From positions 1 through 64,000 of the forward strand of contig NZ_JAPNLJ010000022.1 in assembly GCF_026627445.1 (NCBI RefSeq): 64,000 bases of DNA. Reading direction: 5' to 3'. The position numbers and the translations under genes are program-made. Under the pieces are notes generated by a model. The model saw nothing but the letters and a program-made list of their open reading frames with translations, was not told the DNA's origin and did not search any database. Of the stretch, positions 54,156-59,939 are shown piece by piece. The first letter of the stretch is position 1, and every line of letters begins with the position of its first letter. Source of the stretch: Streptomyces sp. H27-H1. Its GTDB lineage: Bacteria > Actinomycetota > Actinomycetes > Streptomycetales > Streptomycetaceae.

Positions 54156-55652
54156 TCAGGCCTGGGCCAGGACCGGGTCGTAGGGGCCGGAGCGCCGGCG
54201 GCCCGTCATGAAGGACACGAAGTCGTTGACGAACGCGCCCCGGGAGTACGTGGCTCCGGTGCCCGCCGTATCGCGCAGATCGCGCCGGAACCCGGTGCGG
54301 AAAAGCGACCGGTACTCCTCCTCGTCGATGGACTGGTTCCCGTCGGTGTCGGCGGCGTCGAAGAGCACCTCGGCCGCCCTGATCAGCGCGGGTCCGGCGA
54401 GGGAGGGCACGGCCGCCGCGTACTCCTCCTTGCTGATGCGGCCGTCGCCGTCCGCGTCGAGGGCCTGCTGCAACTCCCGCCACCAGTCGGCGAACGCCCG
54501 GTAGAGCCTGGTCTCCTCGGGTTCGTCGAGGTCGAGCCGCCCGGCGAGCTCGCGGGCCATGGCGGCGAGGTCGGGCCAGTCCAGGTAGCCGTCGCCGGTC
54601 TGGTCGAGCACCTCGTGGAAGAACTCCTCGGCGCTGCGCCGAGGACCCTGCGCCGGGGCGCCGGGACCGGGCTCCGGGGGGAGCGGGGTGAGCAGCCTGA
54701 GCAGGGCGCCGGCCCGTTTGACGCCCTCGAGCACCACGGTGATCGTCTTCGCGCGCGGGTCGTCGCTGCCGGGGACCAGGGAGAGCAGGTCGACCAGTTC
54801 GTCCGTCTTGAGCCAGCCGTCGGGCAGGAACCGCGCCATGCCCATGGCCAGGTACGCGCCCTGCGCCACGGTCTGGGCTCCGGGGATCTCGGGCAGCCCG
54901 GCCCGGCGGCGGAAACCCTCCGGCAGCGAGGACACCGTGATGGCGCCGAGGACGGGCCCGACGAGGGAGCGGCCGGCCGCCCACAGCGTGGGCATGCCGT
55001 CCAGCAGCGGCGGCGCGGGGAGGTGGTCGAAGAGCCCGTAGAGGACGATGCGCAGCGCCTCGGTGTTCTCCAGCTCCTGCGCGACCATCCGGTCGAAGTA
55101 CTGCCAGAACTCCCGCAGGGTCGCCGGCAGATGGCCGGCCTCGTCACCCAGCAGCGCGAGGAACGCCTGGTACTCGGCGTACAACTGCTCCATCTCGGCC
55201 TGGGTCAGGGGCTGGCCGCTGAGCCGGCACATGCTGACGGTGCTCTCGTAGAGCGTCGCCACCACCCAGGCCCGCACCGAGGGGTCCATGGCGTCGTAGG
55301 GCCGCTCGCGCGCGTCGGCGCCGTTGATGCGGGCGTGGAGCCGGTTGAGCCGGGCCGCTTCCCGCTCCCGCACCCCGGCATCGGCGTCGAAGACGCGCTG
55401 CATGCTCAGGAAGGTGTTGCGCAGCCGTCGCCACGGGTGCGCCACGAAGGTGGAGTTGCCGATGAGGGCCGCGCCGATCTGCGGGTGGGCGGCCTCCAGT
55501 ACCGTCGCCCGGATCATGGCCAGCGCCCACCGCGGATCGTTCGAGAACCGGCGGAACTGCGAATCGGGCCCGAACGAAGGCTCCTCGACGCCGTCTGCGG
55601 CAGCCGCTGCGCCCTCACCGGGGGAGGGGGAATCGGGATCCAGGTCGGTCAC
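54156..55652 (-). CDS. MpaB-type oxygenase (DUF2236) fused to EF-hand domain
   Basis: A 498-residue protein. Residues about 25-290 are an MpaB/latex-clearing-type heme oxygenase domain (DUF2236): MIRATVLEAAHPQIGAALIG, AWVVATLYESTVSM, and a long helical rest with LPATLREFWQYFDRMV. The C-terminal 170 residues carry three EF-hand calcium loops: DQTGDGYLDWPDL, DADGDGRISKEEY, DTDGNQSIDEEEY. The GTG start overlaps the stop of uppS (GTGA), so the two are coupled. A calcium-responsive oxygenase is suggested; neither substrate nor calcium effect can be read from sequence. Confidence 0.85.
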   Translation of the reverse strand: MTDLDPDSPSPGEGAAAAADGVEEPSFGPDSQFRRFSNDPRWALAMIRATVLEAAHPQIGAALIGNSTFVAHPWRRLRNTFLSMQRVFDADAGVREREAARLNRLHARINGADARERPYDAMDPSVRAWVVATLYESTVSMCRLSGQPLTQAEMEQLYAEYQAFLALLGDEAGHLPATLREFWQYFDRMVAQELENTEALRIVLYGLFDHLPAPPLLDGMPTLWAAGRSLVGPVLGAITVSSLPEGFRRRAGLPEIPGAQTVAQGAYLAMGMARFLPDGWLKTDELVDLLSLVPGSDDPRAKTITVVLEGVKRAGALLRLLTPLPPEPGPGAPAQGPRRSAEEFFHEVLDQTGDGYLDWPDLAAMARELAGRLDLDEPEETRLYRAFADWWRELQQALDADGDGRISKEEYAAAVPSLAGPALIRAAEVLFDAADTDGNQSIDEEEYRSLFRTGFRRDLRDTAGTGATYSRGAFVNDFVSFMTGRRRSGPYDPVLAQA

Positions 55653-56679: not shown

Positions 56680-56696
56680 GGATAGTTGAACTATCC
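56680..56696. promoter_or_regulatory. Perfect palindrome GGATAGTT-G-AACTATCC at the kinase-MFS start
   Basis: Eight-base arms around a single central base, ending 7 bp before the GTG start at 56704. It is AT-rich in a GC-rich region, typical of MarR- or TetR-type operators. A repressor bound there would block transcription or translation of the downstream gene. The regulator is not identified; no MarR/TetR gene is adjacent. Confidence 0.65.
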
Positions 56697-56703
56697 TGCG
56701 CTC

Positions 56704-59232
56704 GTGGACCAGTTGATCGTCGAAGACCCGACCCGTATCGGCCCGTACCGTCTCATCGCCCGGCTGGGGGCCGGGGGCATGGGCCTGGTCTACCTGGGCC
56801 GGTCCGAGGGCGGGCGCACCGTCGCCGTGAAGGTCGTACAGGCCGAGTACGCAGGGAACCCGGAGTTCCGCAAACGCTTCGCCCGGGAGGTGGCCGCCGC
56901 GCGGCGCGTGGGCGGGAGCTGGACCGCGGCCGTCCTCGATGCCGACCCCGAGGCCGCGGTGCCCTGGGTGGCGACCCAGTACATTCCCGGGCCCGACCTG
57001 CACGCCGTGGTCGCCAAGGACTTCGGGCCGCTGCCCGAGCATTCCGTGCGCACCCTCGCCAACCGGCTCGCCCTCGCCCTGCAGGCCGTGCACGAGGCGG
57101 GCCTGATCCACCGCGACCTCAAGCCCTCCAACGTCCTGGTCACCGTCGACGGTCCGCGCGTCATCGACTTCGGCATCGCCCGGGCCATGGACAGCCTCGC
57201 CGGGGACAGCCTGCTCACCAGTACCGGGATGCTGATCGGCTCGCCCGGGTTCATGTCGCCGGAGCAGGTCCGCGGTCTCGAACTCACGCCCGCCAGCGAT
57301 GTCTTCTGCCTCGGCGCCGTCCTCGTCTACGCCGCCACCGGACGGCTCCTCTTCGGCGCCAGGGACACCGGCCTGAACGCCCACCTCTTCCGCATCGCCG
57401 AGGAGGAGGCGGACCTGACCGGTGTGCCGCAGGAGCTCGTCGGGCTCGTACGCGACTGCCTGCACAAGGACCCGGCCCTGCGGCCCACCCCCAAGGAAGT
57501 CGCCGCCAGTACGGGCGCGGACCAGGCCGGGGAATGGCTGCCGGGCGCGGTCCTGGCCCAACTGGGCCGCCACGCGGCCGAATTGCTGGACTTCGCTCCG
57601 GCGCCCCTGGCCGAGGCCCCCGCGGCGCGCCCGGACCCCCGGGTCCCCTCCCCGCGCCCCCGGCTCCCCCCGCCGCCCGCGTACGCCCCCACGGCCCCCG
57701 CGCACTCCGCCCCCGCGGCGCAGGGCTTCGGGCCACCGCCGGCGGCCACACCCGCCGACGACCGGCCCGCGCCCCCGATTTCGGCGGCCCGGAACCCCGC
57801 CTCCCCGCACTCCAGACGCTGGCGGGGTCTGGTCGTGGCCGCCCTGGTACAGCTGATGGTGCTGATGCAGGGGACGGTCTTCGACATGGCGGCGCCGGAG
57901 CTCCAAGCCGACCTGGGCCTCGGCTCCGAGAGCCTGAATCTGGTGTTCATCGCCTACTGGGTCGCCTTCGGCGGGCTGCTCCTGGCCGGCGGTCACCTCG
58001 TGGACCTGGCGGGGCGCCGGCTGACACTGGTGATCGGCCTGGTCGGATTCACGGCGGCCTCCGCGCTCGGCGGCTCGGCCGGCGGCTCCGGAACGCTGAT
58101 CGCGGTCCGTGTCCTTCAGGGCACCTTCTCGGCGCTCCTGACCCCGGCCGCACTCTCCTTGGTGACGACCGGCTTCACCGACCCCAGGGAACGCGGTAGG
58201 GCCTTCGGGGTCTACGCCGCGCTCGCGGGCGGCGGTTCGGTGCTCGGGCTGTTCGCGGGAGGCCTCTCCTCCGGCCTGGTCTGGAGCTGGAACTTCTACC
58301 TCGCCGTCCCCGTCGCCGTGATCGCCCTGATCCTCGTCCTCTCCCTGCCGCACGACCGTCCGGGCCCGCCCGCCGCCCGCCTCGACGTGCCCGGCCTGCT
58401 GCTCGGCTGCGCCGCCCTCGCCGCCCTCGTCCACGGTCTCTTCGCCGGCGGGCCGTACGGCTGGACCGAGCCCCTCGTACTGATCCCGCTCATCGGCGGC
58501 GCCGTCCTGCTCGGTGCCTTCCTGTGGCGCCAGACCAGGGCGTCGAGCCCGATGCTCCCGCCCTACGTCCTGGGTGACCGCGACCGGCTCGGCTCGCTCC
58601 TCGTCCTGTTCCTGACCGGCGGCGCCACCCTCCTGCTGTTCGCGTTCCTGAACCTGTGCCTGCGAGAAGTCCTCGGCTACACCCCGACCGCCGCCGGAAC
58701 GCTCCTCCTCCCCATGGCCGCCGGCATCCTCATCGGGTCCACCCAGGTGTCCGCCCGGCTGGCGCACCGCGTCGCGCCCGGCCTCCTGATCGCGGCGGGG
58801 CTGGTGCTCGTGGCCGCGGGGCTGCTGATCGTGACCGGCCTCGGAGCCGACGGCGCCTACGTGCCCAAGGTGCTGCCCGCCTCGATCCTCATCGGCCTCG
58901 GCATCGGGCTGGCCTACGTGCCGGCCTTCGACACGGCGACCGCCGGCGTCGACCCCCGGCACGCGGGTGCCACCTCGGCGGCCGTCACCACGGCCCAGCA
59001 GCTCGGCGAGGCCATCGGCGCCATGCTCCTCGCCGCCGTCCTCGCGGCGCACCTGAGCGCCACCTCCGTCGAGGAGCTGACCCGACAGCGGCTGAGCGCC
59101 TACACGACCGCCCTCTGGTGGGCGTTCGGCGCCGTGCTCCTCGCCGCCGTGGCCGCCGGCCTGCTGGTCACGGTCAAGCCGCCCCGGACCGACGCACGGC
59201 AACCGGCCGAACCGCTCCGGGCCCAGCACTAG
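56704..59232 (+). CDS. Ser/Thr protein kinase fused to a DHA2-type MFS transporter
   Basis: An 842-residue single polypeptide. Residues about 10-265 are a Hanks-type kinase: LGAGGMGLVYLGR (glycine loop), VAVKVV (catalytic Lys), HRDLKPSNV, DFGIAR and a SPEQ activation-loop end. A Pro-rich linker of about 80 residues follows. From about residue 375 comes a 14-helix drug:H+ antiporter-like transporter (RGLVVAALVQLMVLMQGTVF, HLVDLAGRRLTLVIGL, RVLQGTFSALLTPAALSLV). The usual extracellular sensor domain of such kinases is replaced by the transporter. The GTG at 56704 (VDQLIVEDPTRIG) matches the normal start of this kinase group. A perfect palindrome overlaps its 5' region. It may phosphorylate in response to transport, or control the transporter. 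Confidence 0.9.
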   Translation: MDQLIVEDPTRIGPYRLIARLGAGGMGLVYLGRSEGGRTVAVKVVQAEYAGNPEFRKRFAREVAAARRVGGSWTAAVLDADPEAAVPWVATQYIPGPDLHAVVAKDFGPLPEHSVRTLANRLALALQAVHEAGLIHRDLKPSNVLVTVDGPRVIDFGIARAMDSLAGDSLLTSTGMLIGSPGFMSPEQVRGLELTPASDVFCLGAVLVYAATGRLLFGARDTGLNAHLFRIAEEEADLTGVPQELVGLVRDCLHKDPALRPTPKEVAASTGADQAGEWLPGAVLAQLGRHAAELLDFAPAPLAEAPAARPDPRVPSPRPRLPPPPAYAPTAPAHSAPAAQGFGPPPAATPADDRPAPPISAARNPASPHSRRWRGLVVAALVQLMVLMQGTVFDMAAPELQADLGLGSESLNLVFIAYWVAFGGLLLAGGHLVDLAGRRLTLVIGLVGFTAASALGGSAGGSGTLIAVRVLQGTFSALLTPAALSLVTTGFTDPRERGRAFGVYAALAGGGSVLGLFAGGLSSGLVWSWNFYLAVPVAVIALILVLSLPHDRPGPPAARLDVPGLLLGCAALAALVHGLFAGGPYGWTEPLVLIPLIGGAVLLGAFLWRQTRASSPMLPPYVLGDRDRLGSLLVLFLTGGATLLLFAFLNLCLREVLGYTPTAAGTLLLPMAAGILIGSTQVSARLAHRVAPGLLIAAGLVLVAAGLLIVTGLGADGAYVPKVLPASILIGLGIGLAYVPAFDTATAGVDPRHAGATSAAVTTAQQLGEAIGAMLLAAVLAAHLSATSVEELTRQRLSAYTTALWWAFGAVLLAAVAAGLLVTVKPPRTDARQPAEPLRAQH

Positions 59233-59939
59233 GCGGTTTCGCGCGAACCACCGGGTCGATGCCCAGCAGGCACGCACGGGGCATCGACCCGGGCCCCGGC
59301 GGGTGCGGCGTGCGGACCCGGCTGGACGCGCAGGGGGCCTTCCAGCGCCGTGACGGCGTTTCCGGTGAGGAGTACGCGGTCCCCGTGCACGGTGGTGCGG
59401 ACCAGGCCGGTCCGCGCGGAGCCTGGAGTCCCGTGAGTTCGCTGCGGCCCAGACGCGCCGACCAGTAGGGGGCGAGCACGGTGTGGGCGCTGCCGGTGAC
59501 CGGGTCCTCGGCAATGCCCCGGGCCGGCGCGAAGAAGCGGGAGACGAAGTCGTGCTCGGCACCGGCCCCGGCGGCCGGCGCCGTGACGATCACGCTCGGC
59601 GTTCTCGTGGGAGTGGGTGAGGAGGACGCCGTAGTGCCGGCTGAGGAACCGTACGGTCCCGGCGAGTCCCCGCTCTTCGCGCGGCACGTGCGCCGTGGCC
59701 AGTGTGGCGTGGCCGCACAGCCTGGACTCGACGAGCGGCGTGAACCAGCGGACGGCCCAGTCGGCCTCGGCCGGGGAGGGCAGCGGGAGGGCGAACGCGG
59801 TCTCGCAATGGTTCATCTCGGCCGCGATCTGCCGCATCCAGGCATCGTCGGGCCACTGCCCGGACGGCAGGAGGCACACGGCCGCCGGGTTCCCGGCGAA
59901 AGGGCGGTCGGTGAAGGCGTCGACGACGTGCATGCGCAT
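59229..59939 (-). pseudogene. PhzF-family isomerase pseudogene
   Basis: N-terminal PhzF sequence (MRMHVVDAFTDRPFAGNPAA, NHCETAFAL, ESRLCGHATLATAHV) is followed by a shift near 59610 into another frame, with SRFFAPARGIAEDPVTGSAH. A second shift near 59415 returns to the first frame, with TVHGDRVLLTGNAVTALEG. About 90 residues normally present in the middle are missing. PhzF proteins are isomerases of phenazine and related pathways; this copy cannot be functional as read. Two separate lesions make simple sequencing error unlikely, although homopolymer errors cannot be excluded. Confidence 0.75.

Follow-up and report, generated by a model that had tools for sequence, protein, structure and literature searches.

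The 64,000-nucleotide stretch of Streptomyces sp. H27-H1 analyzed here (contig NZ_JAPNLJ010000022.1; hereafter the window) carries on its forward strand a gene (56704–59232, GTG start, stop codon included) that encodes, within a single protein of 842 residues, an AfsK-like Ser/Thr kinase, a proline-rich linker and a 14-helix transporter domain of the major facilitator superfamily (MFS). Comparison with 60 intact full-length relatives and with standalone MFS proteins suggests, as we hold with moderate confidence, that the MFS domain has been converted into a ligand sensor within a receptor kinase of the AfsK-like type. More tentatively, we suggest a whole family of such receptor kinases, in which the pump machinery was lost in many members while the outward-facing cavity diversifies, so that Streptomyces may "taste" varied molecules through one kinase output; if this is true, the tasted molecules could be, for example, antibiotics of neighbours or signals of the producer itself.

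A kinase and a transporter in one reading frame

A preliminary description of the window had reported kinase motifs and a 14-helix transporter in one open frame, and this was borne out: the 842-residue frame is single and uninterrupted, and Pfam matched both Pkinase (residues 15–268, 125.4 bits, cut-off 31.7) and MFS_1 (residues 380–773, 137.3 bits, cut-off 33.4). A stop or frameshift between the two parts, which had been named as the observation that would refute a fusion, is absent from the window, and the fusion recurs in relatives. The upstream in-frame TTG at 56686 is likewise open; the start codon of the relatives aligns with the window GTG at 56704. TTA codons, indicative of bldA control, are absent from the window gene and occur in one of the 82 proteins examined (L077).

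When 72,556 plasmid records were surveyed by tblastn (30 of 691, 60 of 696 and 60 of 105 matches listed, three matches opened), L001 from Streptomyces sp. NBC_00212 was the sole co-linear relative among the matches listed; in it, a kinase 85% identical to that of the window is followed by a similar linker and then only the first six MFS helices. A genome scan with the window protein alone returned 21 pattern matches and no relative. The impression of a single-genome oddity left by these two results was overturned by an alignment-based scan (window plus L001) of 84,980 species, each represented by one genome, which returned 226 pattern matches and 110 relatives, 80 of the latter being kept as loci. 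Since the scan rested on two 8-residue patterns and kept only part of the relatives, the family is at least this large, and close kinases are over-represented among the loci sampled. Intact full-length fusions of 756–962 residues are found at 60 of the 80 loci. Six further loci encode intact shortened fusions of 636–672 residues (L042, L048, L050, L052, L054 and L073), five have a broken frame (L004, L060, L065, L069 and L074), two are cut by a contig end (L064 and L070), and seven encode sister kinases without an MFS domain (L075, L077, L078 and L080–L083), its absence being judged by Pfam for L075, L077, L078 and L080, by blastx for L083 and by hydropathy alone for L081 and L082.

Pkinase and MFS_1 were both matched by all 61 full-length proteins, the window protein included, and by all six shortened ones; the full-length members thus hold transporter and kinase domains within one polypeptide, which is the architecture of a transceptor. 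Since the same kinase–linker–MFS order recurs in 60 other intact genes, the fusion in the window is neither a chance event nor a sequencing or assembly artefact. According to record titles, the hosts belong to Streptomyces, Streptacidiphilus and Kitasatospora, apart from single records of Microtetraspora glauca and of an "Actinobacteria bacterium", and two members each occur in five genomes (ISL-43, with one disrupted, ADI95-17, tanashiensis, sk2.1, and wedmorensis, with one disrupted). L031 (8374–8781) and L032 (8440–8877) continue past the last helix with a C-terminal stretch of, very roughly, 110 residues that had no Pfam match, and a similar extension was noticed by eye in L027 and L045.

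A conserved kinase and a fast-evolving linker

The kinase domain (residues 1–297, 56704–57594, forward strand) was delimited by Pfam, NCBIfam, the family alignment and an alignment with PknA. It contains the motifs GAGGMG, VAVK, HRDLKPSN, DFG and SPEQ, and with them the glycine loop, lysine, HRD aspartate, asparagine, DFG aspartate and SPE that characterize Hanks-type kinases. These motif stretches are identical in all 61 full-length members apart from positions 23, 159 and 189, Lys43, Asp138, Asp155 and the activation-loop residues Thr172 and Thr174 are invariant throughout, and 202 of the 297 kinase columns show at least 95% identity. Thr172 and Thr174 align with the "VTQTG" of PknA, the threonines of which we take to be phosphosites. 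The best NCBIfam kinase match is AfsK (NF053615, 300.8 bits over residues 1–351), far under the equivalog cut-off of 1300; the PASTA kinase model NF033483 reached 169.8 bits against a cut-off of 450 and covered residues 15–262 only, and the Pfam scan detected no PASTA domain. PknA and PknB are the solved structures closest in sequence to the window kinase, which AlphaFold2 modelled poorly.

The kinase is followed by a fast-evolving Pro/Ala-rich linker (residues 298–371, 57595–57816, forward strand), as defined in the family alignment. Its description as an 80-residue Pro-rich linker holds for the composition and has to be corrected for the length, which is 74 residues by the boundaries used here; across the family it spans 32–107 residues (median 72) with a mean of 31% proline. 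A conserved phosphosite in the linker was considered and rejected, as the candidate Y.PTAPA occurs in 17 of the 61 members and a looser form in 41, and it is hence not universal.

A drug-pump fold with eroded coupling residues

The MFS domain (residues 372–825, 57817–59178, forward strand) was assigned by Pfam, AlphaFold2 and Foldseek. A crude hydropathy scan of the window protein counted 13 helices; the AlphaFold2 model, computed with 61 family members, has 14 after merging two broken ones, at a predicted local distance difference test score of mostly 90–98. EfpA is the solved structure closest in sequence to the window MFS, Foldseek placed the latter on EfpA (8ufd_A) with a TM-score of 0.89 by target length, and together with the MFS_1 match this identifies a 14-helix MFS domain of the EfpA/QacA/EmrB fold. 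The best NCBIfam transporter match, efflux_EmrB (TIGR00711), gave 147.2 bits, under its cut-off of 230.2. The term "drug-type" transporter used in the preliminary description is to be read as a description of fold and ancestry (EfpA, QacA, EmrB).

As standalone controls we used 16 plasmid-borne MFS proteins from the upper part of the 105-record list, skipping obvious duplicates and retaining L090 despite its overlong frame of 787 residues. In transporters of the DHA2 type, an Asp in transmembrane helix 1 (TM1) and an Arg in TM4 have a role in proton coupling. The window protein lacks this pair, with Gln389 at the TM1 site and Arg469 kept in TM4. Of the 61 fused proteins, 19 have the TM1 Asp (a further 10 have Glu there) and 40 have the TM4 Arg, both residues being present in 16 of 16 standalone proteins; 15 of the 61 have both residues and 17 have neither. 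In 40 divergence-matched fused subsets, the means were 5.4 of 16 for the TM1 Asp and 11.7 of 16 for the TM4 Arg, and among 108 columns near-invariant in the standalone proteins the retention of the TM1 Asp is the 18th lowest. Further columns invariant in the standalone set are altered in nearly all fused members, with column 651 kept in 3 of 61, 648 in 2 and 777 in none. The motif of the loop between helices 2 and 3 is retained (Gly430 in 61 of 61, Asp434 in 60 and Gly437 in 61), and position 431 is His in 55 of 61 fused and Arg in 15 of 16 standalone proteins.

Opposite patterns of variation on the two faces of the membrane

Over the 61 full-length members, mean identity is 0.86 for the kinase and 0.44 for the MFS domain. 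Ratios of nonsynonymous to synonymous substitution (omega) were obtained by the method of Nei and Gojobori (NG86) from 21 close pairs, with no sequence used twice and equal synonymous divergence (0.265 and 0.267), and amounted to 0.14 for the kinase, 0.51 for the linker and 0.77 for the whole MFS domain; the pairs were picked by identity, so that some are not sisters in the tree and their paths may share branches. The MFS domain was further divided into inner, middle and outer helix thirds and inner and outer loops, with the side of the kinase taken as cytoplasmic. Omega rises from 0.59 in the inner zone through 0.67 in the helix middle to 1.04 in the outer zone; in five standalone pairs, the corresponding values are 0.51, 0.39 and 0.45. 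A strong claim of positive selection, based on MFS omega values of 0.5–1.0 against those of the kinase, was withdrawn, as standalone controls reach 0.14–0.62 among the 12 pairs listed; a standalone MFS gene in the vicinity of the window locus gave 0.40–0.56.

Mean pairwise differences revealed the same contrast, with 0.48 at inner and 0.67 at outer sites of the fused MFS domains and 0.53 at inner and 0.43 at outer sites of the standalone ones. Outer sites account for 35 of the 50 most variable positions of the fused MFS, and outer variation exceeded inner variation in 40 of 40 overlapping fused subsets of 16 matched on mean identity (0.58 vs 0.41). In the helices that we presume to line the cavity, the outer thirds differ by 0.68 among fused and by 0.37 among standalone proteins, and their polar content (0.28 fused, 0.32 standalone) and charged content (0.077 and 0.063) are similar. 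The case rests on the contrast between inside and outside, which is reversed between the fused and standalone sets and robust to divergence matching.

Probable common descent, shortened members and sister kinases

The kinase domains, 82 in all, were placed in a maximum-likelihood tree, rooted at the midpoint and with bootstrapping not settled, in which one starred branch (98/89) consists exclusively of 73 fusion rows from the genome scan (61 full-length including the window, 6 shortened, 4 disrupted and 2 cut by contig ends). L001 lies just outside this branch and is paired on an unstarred fork with L075, the branch of which is long. A single origin of the fusion group is thus likely, with the placement of L001 unsure. 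Over the 61 full-length members, kinase and MFS distances correlate with a Mantel r of 0.80 (0 of 2000 permutations), as joint inheritance of the two halves would lead one to expect.

The six intact shortened proteins show 8 or 9 hydropathy peaks and end near the ninth helix at a similar place; one branch (97/90, eight rows) unites them with L074, which is disrupted, and L064, which is cut by a contig end. A split C-terminal half was not found in the fetched flanks behind the shortened forms, and an MFS-like stretch behind L048 proved to be separate, on the other strand and 33% identical, and is not the missing half. By itself, a shortened protein would hardly be able to complete the transport cycle that normally involves two domains, yet its kinase is intact. 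The sister kinase L075 (6001–8049) carries an OpuAC solute-binding domain of the glycine betaine type at the place of the MFS domain, and some plasmid records are labelled "bifunctional serine/threonine-protein kinase/ABC transporter ..."; this kinase group therefore pairs with other transport-derived modules as well.

A proposed transporter-derived receptor and its alternatives

We propose that, in Streptomycetaceae, an EfpA-like MFS protein was fused, in all likelihood a single time, to the C-terminal end of a cytoplasmic Ser/Thr kinase resembling AfsK, and that the MFS fold would thereafter have been retained mainly as a sensory module. The outward-facing cavity would bind a small molecule, and the ensuing movement could travel through the cytoplasmic face, which is conserved, and the Pro-rich linker until it reaches the kinase; the kinase would autophosphorylate on its activation loop (Thr172/Thr174) and phosphorylate conserved cytoplasmic targets. 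The cavities differ between species and between paralogues within a genome, and perhaps feed different ligands into one kinase output. The preliminary description had pointed to a transporter in the position that sensor domains occupy in other Hanks kinases, and to the significance of this join, a view supported by the conserved family. Its suggestion of a direct coupling of transport with phosphorylation has become less likely in light of the Gln at the TM1 site of the window protein, the sparse retention of TM1 Asp and TM4 Arg across the family, singly and jointly, and the six intact members that end near the ninth helix.

Such coupling would require a working efflux or uptake pump, the transport of which is either switched by its own kinase through phosphorylation of the linker or loops, or reported to the kinase as in a strict transceptor. 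The high-confidence 14-helix EfpA fold, the near-universal Asp434 and Gly437, the TM4 Arg that persists in 40 members including the window protein, and the maintained polar content of the cavity all speak for a pump. We nevertheless consider it unlikely, as the TM1 Asp is absent from 42 of 61 members (Glu in 10 of them), only 15 have both coupling residues, a branch of members with 8 or 9 helices exists, and columns 651, 648 and 777 have changed. A transporter-derived receptor fits these data better than an active drug pump, although some members may still transport. Loss of coupling residues and tolerance of shortened forms would equally be expected if the MFS domain were a mere membrane anchor or dimeriser under relaxed selection, with the kinase sensing a cytoplasmic ligand, a KbpA-like inhibitor or the membrane itself, and the MFS omega of 0.77, close to 1 in the outer part, as well as peripheral outer sites that vary nearly as much as cavity sites agree with this. 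Yet a pure anchor might be expected to shrink or to fill with hydrophobic residues, whereas the 14-helix frame, the structural glycines and the polar content of the cavity are maintained in 60 relatives at 44% mean identity, and cytoplasmic sites vary no more than those of standalone proteins (0.41 vs 0.53 at matched divergence); we therefore regard a mere anchor as quite improbable. The concentration of variability in outer loops and outer helix thirds could also reflect escape from a docking phage or bacteriocin in place of ligand sensing, which appears very improbable to us: the cavity-lining helices are at least as variable as the peripheral ones, the outer loops are short (33 scored sites), and the scan with two patterns detected no relative in viral contigs, a link to phages being sought no further.

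Several observations weigh against the receptor proposed here. An outer omega of 1.04 cannot separate diversifying from relaxed selection, and codon bias of about 93% GC at third positions inflates NG86 omega, so that the contrast between inner and outer zones, and not the absolute values, constitutes the evidence. The assignment of helix ends and of inside and outside depends in turn on the structure model and on the assumption of a cytoplasmic kinase. Peripheral outer thirds are nearly as variable as those of the cavity (0.63 vs 0.68; standalone peripheral 0.47), the polar content of peripheral outer thirds is lower in fused proteins (0.25 vs 0.36), and Asn and Gln are fewer in the middle and outer cavity (5.5 vs 9.8 per protein, fused vs standalone). 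With regard to coupling, the 15 members with both residues and the TM4 Arg of the window protein have to be accounted for; retention of the TM4 Arg ranks only 45th lowest among the 108 standalone-near-invariant columns (40 members, median 43), and at least one matched 16-member fused subset had it in all 16. The standalone controls are plasmid matches near the window protein and include the near-identical pairs L086/L089 and L094/L096. Finally, the gene may be dispensable in view of the 5 disrupted loci among 80, unless these reflect errors in draft genomes.

A widespread family of one-chain MFS–Ser/Thr kinases with paralogues, truncations and a conserved kinase part offers a system for studying the conversion of a transporter fold into a receptor and the route by which transporter movement is passed to a kinase. 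Since the ancestor was a pump of the drug type, antibiotics or signals may act as ligands, and this would matter for the control of antibiotic production and resistance in Streptomyces.

Genomic context and predicted start

Across the 80 loci, crude gene calls revealed no conserved operon partner. Downstream neighbours shared as synteny are DUF3071 (8 of 80 loci), which we take to mark a SepH-like protein, Glyoxalase (7) and Rhodanese (7), with all three at 6 loci. Between the window and L010, identity amounts to 94% for the kinase, 56% for the MFS domain, 92% for Glyoxalase, 90% for Rhodanese and 98% for DUF3071. Among the eight syntenic orthologues, L004 is disrupted by an in-frame stop at codon 204 and L060 by a frameshift between kinase and MFS. 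The window contains a broken PhzF-like gene (59177–59939, reverse strand), flanked by the genes of the fusion and of Glyoxalase, with profile positions 1–107 in one frame, 186–234 in another and the middle unmatched; no gene was called at this spot in L010. On the other side, the reverse strand at 54159–55646 encodes an MPAB/Lcp-type oxygenase domain followed by EF hands.

A −10-like TANNNT motif (56692–56697, forward strand) ends 6 nt before the GTG, for which a leaderless transcript is predicted, and is overlapped by a perfect 8+1+8 inverted repeat (56680–56696), a possible operator. The comparison covered 78 upstream regions, those of the window, L001 and 76 loci, for which the aligned position holds a start codon. 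TANNNT lies 5–9 nt ahead of the start codon in 65 of them and occurs in 0 or 1 of 78 at each of five shifted control positions; a Shine–Dalgarno sequence was found in 0 of 78 under strict and 12 of 78 under loose matching. From these upstream sequences, a leaderless start is predicted for most of the kinase–MFS family. The 13 regions without TANNNT comprise 12 from shortened forms and from members next to them in the tree (L027, L031, L032, L042, L045, L048, L050, L052, L054, L064, L073 and L074) and L082. An element TTGGATA..TA(T/C)C, related to the repeat of the window, is present in 15 of the 78 upstream regions, the window included.

Comparison with known systems

To our knowledge, transporter-based receptors are mainly separate proteins or rare fusions with histidine kinases. 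Automatic annotation sometimes uses names like "bifunctional kinase/MFS transporter"; a bare "MFS transporter", as assigned to the L001 protein, may be the reason why such proteins were overlooked. The literature on kinase–transporter fusions and Streptomyces kinases, judged by titles and abstract openings among the matches listed, contained no kinase–MFS fusion, which leaves absence from print unproven, and a term search of the domain surveys PMC1262709 and PMC2877116 and the review PMC6213207 gave 0 occurrences of "MFS" and "facilitator" in the text searched.

The nearest analogues are CbrA, which is one chain, and UhpC/UhpB. UhpC is an MFS protein, of a different MFS subfamily than the window protein. 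According to PMC13022988, CbrA of Pseudomonas is a "transceptor" composed of an SLC5 transporter and a histidine kinase, in which transporter conformations are proposed to drive the kinase. It shares with the window protein a transporter fold and a kinase in a single chain, but combines an N-terminal SLC5 transporter with a histidine kinase through a STAC domain, whereas the window protein combines an N-terminal Ser/Thr kinase with an MFS domain through a Pro-rich linker. UhpC/UhpB of E. coli, named in PMC5703999, comprises a transporter-like sensor of an external solute that works with a sensor kinase; there, two separate proteins and a histidine kinase stand in place of one chain with a Ser/Thr kinase. 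AfsK, described in PMC1262709 as a Streptomyces Ser/Thr kinase with bac_PQQ repeats, is the best NCBIfam match of the window protein over residues 1–351, but the latter has an MFS domain instead of a PQQ domain (Pfam). The mycobacterial efflux pump EfpA (8ufd, 8ufe) has the same fold across the whole MFS domain at 29–30% identity; it is standalone and has both TM1 Asp and TM4 Arg, in contrast to the Gln at the TM1 site of the window protein. Also comparable are actinobacterial kinases with solute-binding domains (L075, the plasmid records labelled as kinase/ABC transporter proteins, and those in PMC1262709), which join a similar kinase to a transport-derived C-terminal module; they carry a soluble binding domain, whereas the window protein carries a whole MFS domain.

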